A stretch of 64,000 nucleotides of DNA from Mucilaginibacter ginkgonis. GTDB lineage: Bacteria; Bacteroidota; Bacteroidia; Sphingobacteriales; Sphingobacteriaceae. A program made the translations under genes and the position numbers. Shown piece after piece: positions 1-16,277 of the stretch. Position 1 is the stretch's first letter; each line of letters begins with the position of its first letter. The notes beneath the pieces are model-generated. The model made no database searches and was not told where the DNA came from. It was given only the letters and a program-made list of their open reading frames with translations. The stretch lies in contig NZ_CP066775.1 of assembly GCF_009754905.2 (NCBI RefSeq), forward strand, positions 744,001-808,000, given 5' to 3'.

Positions 1-774
1 GGGCTGAGCAAGTTGGGTGAAGAAGGCAAGGGTGTAGTCCGCGGTATAGATAAAATATCCAAGGTGCTCTTCAATATAATGGGAGTGGTGATGCGCGTAG
101 CGCCGATAGGTGCCTTTGGGGGGATGGCTTATACAGTCGGCACTTATGGTTTGTCGACACTTGTGCCAATGCTCAAGCTTTTGGGAGCGGTGTACCTGGC
201 CATGCTCATATTCATTTTTGTAGTGCTTAATATTATCTGCTTTATCTACAAGATCAGTTTATGGCAGTATTTAAAATATATAAGGCAAGAGATCTTTATT
301 GTTTTGGGCACCTCATCGTCAGAGCCGGTATTACCTGCCATGATGCAAAAGATGGAACGATTTGGCTGTGCTAAATCGGTTGTCGGACTGGTGATCCCGA
401 CGGGTTACTCATTTAACCTGGATGGCACAACCATTTATTTATCCATGTCGGTCATCTTTCTGGCACAAGTGTTTCATATCCCGCTGTCACTTGGTCAGCA
501 GTTGACCATCATTGGTATTTTGATGATCACCTCGAAAGGCGCGGCTGGCGTGACCGGGAGCGGCTTTATTGTGCTGGCTTCTACCTTGACGGCGATAAAG
601 ATCATTCCGCTGGAAAGCGTTGCTATACTTTTAGGCGTAGACAGGTTTATGTCGCTGGCCCGGGCATTGACGAACGTGATCGGAAACGGACTCGCCAGCG
701 TGGTGATCGCTAAAAGTGAAAAGGAGTTTGATGAGGCGAAATATCAAAAGGCGATTAACCCCCTAACCCCCTGA
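1..774 (+). CDS. Dicarboxylate/cation symporter (DctA/GltP family), C-terminal part
   Basis: The reading frame is open from the first base of the window, so the start lies outside it; only about the last 257 residues are visible. They carry the family hallmarks of sodium/proton-dicarboxylate symporters: a SFNLDGTTIYL stretch and the later SKGAAGVTGSGF stretch, which form the substrate and cation site near hairpin 2 and TM8, between hydrophobic membrane segments. The protein would import C4-dicarboxylates, glutamate or aspartate across the inner membrane. The last residues (INPLTP) are encoded by a palindromic C/G-rich intergenic repeat that also supplies the stop codon. The exact substrate cannot be told. 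Confidence 0.9.
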   Translation, partial: GLSKLGEEGKGVVRGIDKISKVLFNIMGVVMRVAPIGAFGGMAYTVGTYGLSTLVPMLKLLGAVYLAMLIFIFVVLNIICFIYKISLWQYLKYIRQEIFIVLGTSSSEPVLPAMMQKMERFGCAKSVVGLVIPTGYSFNLDGTTIYLSMSVIFLAQVFHIPLSLGQQLTIIGILMITSKGAAGVTGSGFIVLASTLTAIKIIPLESVAILLGVDRFMSLARALTNVIGNGLASVVIAKSEKEFDEAKYQKAINPLTP

Positions 775-4680: not shown

Positions 4681-4714
4681 GGCCTCACTCAACTCTCTTC
4701 AAAGGAGAGGGCTA
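4681..4714 (+). repeat. Single GCCTCACTC...GGAGAGGG repeat unit
   Basis: This unit starts two bases after the pruA stop and contains the CTCTTC-AAAG-GAGAG mini-hairpin. It belongs to the family found at 2845, 8544 and 15059. Confidence 0.65.
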
Positions 4715-13900: not shown

Positions 13901-15058
13901 ATGCCATTTTACCACACGCTGGGAAAGATCCCGCACAAAAGGCACACCATATTCCGCAAACCGGATGGCAACCTGTATGCCGAAGAATTGGTATCTACAG
14001 AAGGGTTCTCTAACATGTATTCGCTTATCTACCATGCTTATCCGCCAACGATTGTTAAAGCATTAGGCGAGCCATACAGCGTGGAACCGAAGATTGCGCT
14101 TGAGAAACATCTAAAACATACCAGTCTTGTTGGCTTCAATATTCAGCCCGAAGACGACTATCTGAAAAGCCGAAAACCTGTATTGGTGAATAGCGACTTG
14201 CACATTTCTTTGGCTGCGCCGCGCCAATCAATGACTGATTACTTTTACAAGAACAGCCAGGCAGATGAGGTGGTTTTCATCCACAAAGGAACAGGGACTC
14301 TCAAGACAGGCTTCGGCAAAATCAAATTTGAATATGGCGATTACCTGGTCATTCCGCGTGGCACTATATACCAGCTGCAATTTGATACGGAAGATAACCG
14401 CCTGTTCATTGTAGAAAGCTTTAGCCCCATCCGCACACCTAAAAGGTACCGCAACCAATTTGGCCAGTTGATGGAGCATTCGCCTTATTGTGAACGTGAC
14501 ATTAAACGCCCACAGGATTTAGAAACGCATGATGAAAAGGGCGACTTTAAAGTGCTGATCAAAAAACAAGGATTAATTTATCCCTACACCTACGGAACTC
14601 ATCCTTTCGATTTTGTAGGGTGGGACGGGTACCATTACCCCTGGGCATTTTCTATTCATGATTTTGAACCGATAACAGGGCGCTTGCACCAACCACCACC
14701 GGTGCACCAAACGTTTGAAGGGCATAACTTTGTGATCTGCTCATTTGTGCCGCGCAAGTTCGACTATCACCCGCAGTCTATACCGGCACCCTATAATCAC
14801 AGCAATGTAGACAGCGACGAGGTTTTATATTACGTTGACGGCGACTTTATGAGCCGCAAAAACGTGGTGAAGGGACAGATCACCCTGCATCCGGGCGGCA
14901 TCCCGCATGGCCCGCACCCGGGATCGGTCGAAAAATCTATCGGCAAAGAAGCGACAGAAGAGCTGGCCGTAATGATAGACCCTTTTCGCCCGTTGATGCT
15001 TACTGAAAACGCTTTAGCAATTGAAGACCCTGATTACTATAAAAGCTGGGCGGAGTAA
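13901..15058 (+). CDS. hmgA: Homogentisate 1,2-dioxygenase
   Basis: The iron(II) enzyme opens the ring of homogentisate to give maleylacetoacetate. The 385-residue protein is of the shorter bacterial type and shows the cupin-like core with the Gly/His-rich C-terminal active-site region (HPGGIPHGPHPG). Upstream, the DEVVFIHKGTGTLKTGFG stretch is the N-terminal jelly-roll. It lies between the flavin reductase-like gene and hppD in the tyrosine operon. The stop codon abuts a GCCTCACCC repeat unit, which separates it from hppD. Confidence 0.95.
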   Translation: MPFYHTLGKIPHKRHTIFRKPDGNLYAEELVSTEGFSNMYSLIYHAYPPTIVKALGEPYSVEPKIALEKHLKHTSLVGFNIQPEDDYLKSRKPVLVNSDLHISLAAPRQSMTDYFYKNSQADEVVFIHKGTGTLKTGFGKIKFEYGDYLVIPRGTIYQLQFDTEDNRLFIVESFSPIRTPKRYRNQFGQLMEHSPYCERDIKRPQDLETHDEKGDFKVLIKKQGLIYPYTYGTHPFDFVGWDGYHYPWAFSIHDFEPITGRLHQPPPVHQTFEGHNFVICSFVPRKFDYHPQSIPAPYNHSNVDSDEVLYYVDGDFMSRKNVVKGQITLHPGGIPHGPHPGSVEKSIGKEATEELAVMIDPFRPLMLTENALAIEDPDYYKSWAE

Positions 15059-15184
15059 CGCCTCACCCAACCCTCCCCGAAGGAGAGGGCTTTAAAAAAC
15101 CAATTAAATATAAATTATGGAAACACTAACTAAAGATATCGAGAAAGACAACTCCCTTTCCTTTGGGGAGGGCGGGGGTGAGGC
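15059..15184. repeat. Inverted repeat pair framing the hppD start
   Basis: The left unit (15059-15095) is GCCTCACCCAACCCTCCCC plus GGAGAGGGC; the right unit (15151-15184) is the same type inverted, ending GGGGGTGAGGC. The hppD ATG (15117) lies between them, and the right unit is translated as residues 12-23 of the enzyme. Confidence 0.75.
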
Positions 15185-16277
15185 AGCCACAGACTTCCTT
15201 CCACTAAACGGTACAGACCACATTGAATTTTATGTGGGCAATGCCAAGCAAGCAGCTCATTTTTATAAAACTGCTTTCGGTTTTCAGGACCTGGCATATG
15301 CCGGACCGGAGACTGGCGTGCGCGACCGTGCTTCATATGTATTACAGCAAGAAAAAATCCGTTTGGTGCTGACCACGCCTTTACATTCAGATCACCCTAT
15401 CAGCGAACACATCAAAAAACATGGCGATGGTGTAAAGTCTATCTCACTTTGGGTTGATGACGCGTACGATGCTTTTAAGCAGACCATCAAACGCGGTGCC
15501 GAACCGTACTTAGAGCCACAGACCATAACAGATGAGCATGGCGAAGTGCGTATCAGCGGCATTAAACTGTATGGCGAAACGGTACACATGTTTATCGAAC
15601 GTAAAAACTATAGCGGCGTTTTCATGCCTGGTTACCAGGAATGGAAGTCGGAATATAATCCCGGCCCCACTGGGTTGCTTTATGTAGATCATTGCGTAGG
15701 CAACGTAGGCTGGAACAAAATGAACGACTGGGTGAATTTTTATGAAGACATTATGGGCTTCAGGAACATTCTTACGTTTGATGACAAGATGATCTCGACC
15801 GAGTATTCTGCCCTGATGAGTAAGGTGATGAGTAACGGTAACGGCTTCGTAAAATTCCCTATCAATGAACCTGCAGAAGGCAAAAAGAAAAGCCAGATAG
15901 AAGAATACCTTGAGTTTTACGAAGGTGAGGGCGTGCAACATATGGCACTGGCTACCCATGATATCGTTAAAACTGTTACCGATCTCAAAAGTCGCGGCGT
16001 TGAGTTCCTGACAGTGCCCAATACCTATTATGACGATTTGTTAGACAGGGTGGGACACATAGATGAAGACCTGGAACCGTTGAAGCAATTGGGCATACTG
16101 GTAGACCGTGATGATGAAGGCTATCTGCTGCAGATTTTCACCAAACCGGTTGAAGACAGACCGACTGTGTTCTTTGAGATCATCCAGCGTAAGGGGGCTA
16201 AATCTTTCGGCGCGGGTAATTTCAAAGCTTTATTTGAGGCAATCGAGCGGGAGCAGGAGCTAAGGGGCAACCTGTAA
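15117..16277 (+). CDS. hppD: 4-Hydroxyphenylpyruvate dioxygenase
   Basis: HppD converts 4-hydroxyphenylpyruvate to homogentisate. The 386-residue protein has two VOC domains (starting DHIEFYVGN and DHCVGNVGW). The iron ligands can be seen as His192, His275 (QHMALAT) and Glu354 (FFEIIQRKG). Residues 12-23 (NSLSFGEGGGEA) come from a dispersed DNA repeat, so the N-terminus before the first domain is atypical and disposable. The start at 15117 is 58 nt after hmgA. Product feeds HmgA encoded just upstream. Confidence 0.95.
   Translation: METLTKDIEKDNSLSFGEGGGEAATDFLPLNGTDHIEFYVGNAKQAAHFYKTAFGFQDLAYAGPETGVRDRASYVLQQEKIRLVLTTPLHSDHPISEHIKKHGDGVKSISLWVDDAYDAFKQTIKRGAEPYLEPQTITDEHGEVRISGIKLYGETVHMFIERKNYSGVFMPGYQEWKSEYNPGPTGLLYVDHCVGNVGWNKMNDWVNFYEDIMGFRNILTFDDKMISTEYSALMSKVMSNGNGFVKFPINEPAEGKKKSQIEEYLEFYEGEGVQHMALATHDIVKTVTDLKSRGVEFLTVPNTYYDDLLDRVGHIDEDLEPLKQLGILVDRDDEGYLLQIFTKPVEDRPTVFFEIIQRKGAKSFGAGNFKALFEAIEREQELRGNL

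Follow-up and report, generated by a model that had tools for sequence, protein, structure and literature searches.

A REP-type palindrome in frame in the N-terminal tail of HppD of Mucilaginibacter ginkgonis and the association of such palindromes with inserted DUF559 domains

We found that the hppD gene of Mucilaginibacter ginkgonis very probably carries a copy of a dispersed, mobile-looking palindrome, denoted REP-A, standing in frame after codon 12. The gene lies at 15117-16277 on the forward strand of the window, the whole 64,000-nucleotide stretch of DNA that was analyzed and whose positions are used here; it covers 744001-808000 of the genome. It encodes a 4-hydroxyphenylpyruvate dioxygenase of 386 aa, as indicated by its match to TIGR01263 (465 bits) and by the N-termini of relatives. 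The open reading frame upstream (13901-15058, forward strand) encodes an HmgA-like homogentisate 1,2-dioxygenase that matches NCBIfam TIGR01015 with an E value of 1.2e-17, under the curated cut-off. Two REP-A units were found at this locus. The left unit (15060-15089, forward strand; G000:C1:759061-759089 in the genome, G000 being the genome of the window) was detected by pattern match and starts 1 base past the hmgA stop codon (15056-15058). The right unit (15151-15184, reverse strand) was detected by pattern match and consensus score and is located within the hppD coding sequence. The two units are inverted relative to each other, their CCTCACC heads facing outward. The right unit spans the third base of codon 12 to codon 23, and residues 13-23 of the N-terminal tail (SLSFGEGGGEA; 15153-15185, forward strand) are entirely repeat-coded. 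These positions agree with an earlier note on this DNA, which had described an inverted repeat pair across the hmgA-hppD gap and the hppD start, with the right unit encoding residues 12-23. A second inverted REP-A pair with the same layout is located at 2845-2922 (2845-2876 on the forward and 2893-2922 on the reverse strand), outside any frame of at least 70 aa. Two more degenerate REP-A-like units were observed in the window, at 4683 and 8547, both on the forward strand.

REP-A is a palindrome of about 30-34 bp, with the head GCCTCACCC followed by a CCCTCTCC-n3/4-GGAGAGGG hairpin. It is short and imperfect, has an asymmetric head and occurs in many dispersed copies, as REP sequences do. The GTAG or CGTC end tag is missing from the unit, which begins GCCTCACC. 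The exact pattern was found in 47 copies in the 3.70 Mb single-contig genome, 22 on the forward and 25 on the reverse strand, while the reversed pattern, used as a control, had 0 matches in the same genome. Among the 60 genomes searched, REP-A was present in 41 (own genome counted), spanning 13 of 24 genera, which bears out the previous description of the repeat as a dispersed family. The stop-free fraction of REP units was 0.775, compared with a mean of 0.717 and a maximum of 0.765 in shuffles. Base composition accounts for most of the stop-freeness of the units, and the excess over shuffles is small.

We compared the HppD proteins of the genus (n = 27: the window and loci L010-L035, leaving out two further matches, one of 33% identity in G007 and a short one in G003). 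Exactly 374 aa and no insert were found in 24 of the 27, and an insert was found in the proteins of the window (386 aa), G026 (382 aa) and G033 (379 aa). The residues are thus not common to all relatives, which was the comparison that the earlier note had put forward as able to overturn its reading. Because the unit is absent in 24 of the 27 HppDs, we infer that it was inserted at hppD rather than lost elsewhere. The insert of G026, ISPTGVNLEGA, is a unit of another palindrome family, denoted REP-C (score 54, reached by 0 of 1000 Markov shuffles). REP-C is dispersed too, with 36 exact copies in the G026 genome, the hppD copy included. The N-terminus of the G026 protein is identical to that of M. 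oryzae, and among 80 further HppD loci, whose N-termini were judged by eye, such an insert was seen in M. oryzae only. Both the HppD N-terminus and the DNA upstream of it agree fully between L012 and L041 (M. oryzae) and between L028 and L044 (M. phyllosphaerae), from which the genus was taken to be Mucilaginibacter. The G033 insert is a degenerate and probable REP unit: it scores 21 against REP-A (reached by 11 of 1000 shuffles) and 19 against REP-C (30 of 1000), and a relaxed REP-A pattern also detects it. The units are located at +37..68 (window), +28..59 (G026) and +22..53 (G033) from the start, all with their heads toward the 3' side. This suggested that the same stretch of the HppD tail has received a repeat on two well-supported occasions and probably on a third. 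In the closest HppD (G015), a unit is found before the start only. The congener hppD sequences have already diverged, so that a target-site duplication is unreadable.

The inserts lie in a tail that precedes the enzyme fold. The TIGR01263 match begins at residue 32, the best-matching solved HPPD aligns from residue 25, and residues 1-29 have pLDDT values <50 in AlphaFold (mean pLDDT of the best model, 69); the tail is accordingly predicted to be disordered. These results are in line with the previous suggestion that the repeat is tolerated since it precedes the catalytic domain. The unit may persist because it contains few stops and because its peptide lies outside the enzyme fold.

The right unit is G+C-rich, which would be enough by itself to keep frames open, and it could be taken for a chance stretch unrelated to the repeat. 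The likelihood of this is negligible: none of 1000 Markov shuffles reached the score of the unit against the REP-A consensus (42), which refutes a chance match, and the contrast between 47 matches and 0 for the reversed pattern points the same way. The starts of five insert-free HppDs scored only 10-14 against the consensus, which is background. Another reading is that the hppD start is misassigned, with translation beginning downstream and the right unit being intergenic. Many N-terminal REPs may be extragenic for such a reason, according to the accessible part of a 2013 survey (PMC3733652), but the ATG and the METLT of this gene match the start of many congeners, and past the unit no in-frame ATG, GTG or TTG is found until V40, a residue within the first strand (36-41) of the model. 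We judged a misassigned start very unlikely. At L122 (2789-4186), a dihydroorotase-like frame (named by eye) starts with a REP-A unit (SLSFGEDWGEA), and the probable ATG lies downstream of it; this unit is likely extragenic and the frame over-extended at its N-terminus.

The earlier note had also proposed that the two units, being complementary, could fold together, hide the start codon and act as a translational control. The folding itself was borne out computationally: the RNA of 15059-15200 has a computed energy of -57.7 kcal/mol, compared with -33.0 in shuffles (z -6.6; 0 of 200 shuffles equally stable), and the two units pair over their whole length. Such complementarity is expected, since any two inverted copies of one family are complementary. 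The hiding of the start codon was not supported. The start codon sits in an A/T-rich loop of about 60 nt between the paired units, and this stretch showed no structure when folded alone. The mean unpaired probability of positions -18..+13 was 0.73, a value inside the 0.47-0.85 span observed for 29 other HppD starts, and it was nearly unchanged with the right unit only (0.74); that of the ATG was 0.39 with both units and 0.45 with the right unit only. In addition, the REP pairs of L018 and L027 lie entirely upstream of the hppD start. Folding and accessibility thus gave no sign of translational control by the hppD REP units, and we consider a start-hiding hairpin improbable. The preferred reading is that of a mobile-looking repeat copy standing in frame, with the left unit as a further copy in the gap.

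The hmgA-hppD gap was found by pattern search to be occupied by repeats in several of the 27 loci. REP-A was found there in the window and in L010, L014, L018, L027 and L031, and REP-C in L028. Another repeat, GTCATTGCGAGG, occupies the gap in L016, L022, L024, L026 and L032. The GTCATTGCGAGG repeat was also observed upstream of hppD in L043. The gap is therefore a repeat-rich spot into which the left unit of the window fits, and this unit would be a second copy in a gap where some congeners also hold REP units or pairs. Inverted pairs with heads facing outward were found at 2845-2922 of the window and, for L018 and L027, between hmgA and hppD; heads-outward pairs of one REP-A and one REP-C unit were found in the IcmF genes of G033 and G001.

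We then considered the other REP-A units of this genome, using 57 units from the window, two stretches with genes for REP-associated tyrosine transposases (RAYTs) and 33 other fetched stretches. Seven of the 57 are in frame in long frames matching conserved enzymes: one in hppD, one in alaS, two in ispG and three in icmF. The families of the hosts (alanyl-tRNA synthetase, IspG/GcpE and the fused isobutyryl-CoA mutase IcmF) were assigned by Pfam and NCBIfam searches, and units in frames of 71-163 aa were not counted as coding. The AlaRS unit falls in a gap of the alignment to a solved cytoplasmic AlaRS.

In IcmF of this genome, a DUF559 domain (PF04480, E 3.4e-30), a Vsr-like nuclease domain, is located between the REP-A units. 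DUF559 was found in 35 of 37 genomes of the genus, in many cases in frames of about 380-450, 1100 or 1300 residues. From the flanking sequence, the hosts in the genus loci are IcmF, TruB, a DEXH helicase, LeuS and HisF. IcmF alone was confirmed by family search; TruB, LeuS, DEXH and HisF, as well as MetH and HsdR below, are what we take the hosts to be from conserved stretches read by eye. In families of the class Bacteroidia, we observed MetH-like hosts in L218, L220, L221 and L226, LeuS-like hosts in L225, L228, L230, L231, L236 and L237, and HsdR-like hosts in L219 and L246, all named in this way. A HisF-like protein with an N-terminal DUF559 was seen in six genus genomes (L166, L169, L170, L175, L178 and L181), and its DUF559-HisF linker, SPFRGxGGL, resembles another translated repeat. 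A third DUF559 gene of this genome (L158; G000:C1:2112368-2112640) has an internal stop codon and no REP-A nearby.

We counted the REP units flanking DUF559 in the 32 genus and 29 class loci returned by the searches; DUF559 was located by a fuzzy motif, and a few loci cut by contig ends may be misplaced. Among the 12 host-inserted genus loci (HisF excluded), strict outward REP-A units were found on both sides in 9 and on one side in 3. When REP-C and a relaxed REP-A pattern were included, the opposite side of the three one-sided loci was also seen to hold a unit. Further inward-facing units were found in L160, L164 and L165. In the near flanks of these 12 loci, 28 units were counted in 6.0 kb, compared with 5 in 29.9 kb farther out. 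The other 20 genus loci, free-standing or, in six cases, HisF-fused, contain 1 near unit in 10.0 kb, and 19 of them have no strict REP-A unit nearby. In the class, the inserted loci (n = 10) have units on both sides in 5 cases, on one side in 3 and on neither in 2, with 13 units in 5.0 kb of near flank versus 2 in 24.9 kb of far flank. With the relaxed REP-A pattern and REP-C, units were found on both sides in L218 and L225, on one side in L220 and L221, and on neither in L226. The other class loci (n = 19) have units on both sides in 6 cases, on one side in 4 and on neither in 9, with 23 units in 9.5 kb near versus 2 in 42.5 kb far. The background was 5 REP-A units in 319 kb across the 80 HppD loci, and 3 in 26.9 kb across eight glyoxalase loci of this genome. 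Judged from these sequences, the association of REP units with host-inserted DUF559 is strong.

We compared the allele states at two sites. At a single position in IcmF, bounded by two conserved blocks, 13 of 25 genus orthologues have an empty site of 8-11 residues with no unit, one (G021) has a solo unit, two (G033 and G001) have a REP pair without the nuclease, and nine have DUF559 with units, G020 having strict units on the left only. With empty, solo, paired and nuclease alleles present in a single genus, the succession of events becomes open to testing. The IcmF of this genome (L199) has 232 residues between the conserved blocks, and its left linker was observed to be enlarged by tandem degenerate units (ASPQSSPE.., ASSQTSPE.. 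and ASPQPSPKE..). At the C-terminus of TruB, the nuclease is present in G000, G035 and G034, and 28 of the 30 tails compared are without it; the G000 tail was read from its own locus, outside the 30. The TruB tail of G031, which is REP-like by eye, matched neither the REP-A nor the REP-C pattern. The AlphaFold model of IcmF was poor (mean pLDDT 47, pTM 0.29). The DUF559 stretch (about 530-650) was among its better parts, and the linkers (468-531 and 650-704) were <50, like many stretches of the host. The pN/pS ratio of the IcmF DUF559 was 0.226 (21 pairs) and that of the host flank 0.075, both rough values given a near-saturated pS of 0.78.

We constructed a phylogenetic tree of DUF559 with 56 rows and 111 columns, which is midpoint-rooted and has many unresolved forks. 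The 22 inserted domains, from IcmF, TruB, DEXH, LeuS and MetH in the genus and the class, fall on one side of a branch with support 98/95. The HisF-fused domains form a separate group, and the remaining domains are located elsewhere in the tree. The Mucilaginibacter TruB and LeuS copies cluster together (95/95) among IcmF copies with moderate support (92/88), and this nesting suggests movement between unrelated genes. Residues E18, D46, E57, D59 and H63 (L163 numbering) are invariant in all 22 inserted domains. Against the PDB, the IcmF DUF559 matched 3hrl, an 'endonuclease-like protein' (E 3e-18), and weakly 3r3p, a 'mobile intron protein' (E 0.026). Between the mutase matches of the G000 IcmF, DUF559 and a sub-threshold MTES_1575 match were found, and no splicing domain was found in the insert by Pfam and NCBIfam at E values up to 0.001. 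In the accessible part of one report, a Caulobacter DUF559 protein is connected with DNA damage in vivo (PMC12907096).

The hppD unit would be the solo form of a larger system of the genus, which comprises solo units, inverted pairs and the ends of in-frame DUF559 insertions. As the preferred working model, we tentatively propose that DUF559 nuclease activity and copy-in repair spread the REP-ended insert, with the solo units and pairs being nuclease-less derivatives. REP-A and REP-C could then form the ends of a novel class of mobile element, a REP-DUF559-REP insert that stands in frame in core enzymes across the class Bacteroidia, does not splice and leaves its palindromic ends as translated linkers; solo units and pairs, that of HppD included, would be its nuclease-less derivatives or footprints. 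This broader reading is likewise a possibility that we hold with more doubt than confidence. Such an insert would enter loops, linkers and tails of core enzymes, and a palindrome translated into an innocuous linker would allow mobile DNA to reside in core genes without splicing. Length differences in conserved enzymes, as in HppD and IcmF, can be mobile DNA.

REPs and REPINs are classically dispersed by a RAYT (TnpA-REP) transposase, and such an enzyme may instead move the REPs here, with DUF559 being a passenger or using the REPs as landing sites. We consider this plausible, though somewhat short of evenly balanced. The heads-outward inverted pairs are as in REPINs, and two genes of the genome match the NCBIfam model for REP-associated tyrosine transposases, one above and one below the cut-off; a REP-A-like unit was seen about 160 bp away from the second gene. 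However, the inverted repeats flanking both genes belong to families other than REP-A, REP-A begins GCCTCACC rather than GTAG or CGTC, and REP-A crowds at host-inserted DUF559 instead. Given the flanking repeats, a RAYT as the proven source of REP-A was dropped. One RAYT gene (L121, 1991-3714) was observed amid repeated copies of its own end stretches and is also surrounded by copies of an inverted CCCGCAAGCG...CGCTTGTGGG repeat.

REPs in frame are known elsewhere. Those with GTAG/CGTC tags occur in frame in Proteobacteria and other phyla, including in tRNA synthetases and truB, as described in the accessible part of the 2013 survey (PMC3733652). The units here resemble these intragenic REPs, which the same part describes as palindromes of 20-40 bp in the ORFs of conserved proteins, single, paired or clustered, and the two share tRNA synthetases and truB as hosts (PMC3733652). 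Unlike them, REP-A has the head GCCTCACC, its hosts belong to Bacteroidota, and its units additionally flank a DUF559 nuclease domain, a difference from the GTAG/CGTC REPs as far as the accessible part of the survey describes them (PMC3733652). The insert in hppD adds a new example to this already known kind of event. The units can also be likened, by mode, to the Rickettsia palindromic elements (RPEs), which the accessible text presents as palindromes in frame in proteins, N-termini included (PMC3733652). HppD and IcmF both fit this mode, being conserved proteins with an in-frame palindrome that relatives lack. RPEs are not known to carry a nuclease.

REPs are also found within tnpA-REP genes of subclass 2.4, which are abundant in Cyanobacteria and Bacteroidetes according to the available part of PMC6006769. 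The inverted unit pair and the genome-wide dispersal are shared with REPIN/RAYT systems, as the available parts of two reports describe them (PMC3116915, PMC8049555). In contrast to such systems, the two RAYT genes found here are flanked by repeats of other families, and no cognate REP-A RAYT was found in the genome. As with inteins and group I introns that have Vsr-like (EDxHD) homing endonucleases, a nuclease domain stands in frame inside conserved genes. EDxHD homing endonucleases are related to Vsr. Unlike inteins, the IcmF insert contains no detected splicing domain, and its ends are REP palindromes kept in frame as linkers. We found no published report of a REP-framed DUF559 insert in a search that covered mainly openly available literature. 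More surprising than the hppD insert is the in-frame nuclease framed by REPs, with a strong REP association and a putative role for the nuclease. If the REP-framed DUF559 inserts are mobile, they would represent an in-frame equivalent of inteins as well as a candidate mobilizer for a repeat type widespread in Bacteroidota.
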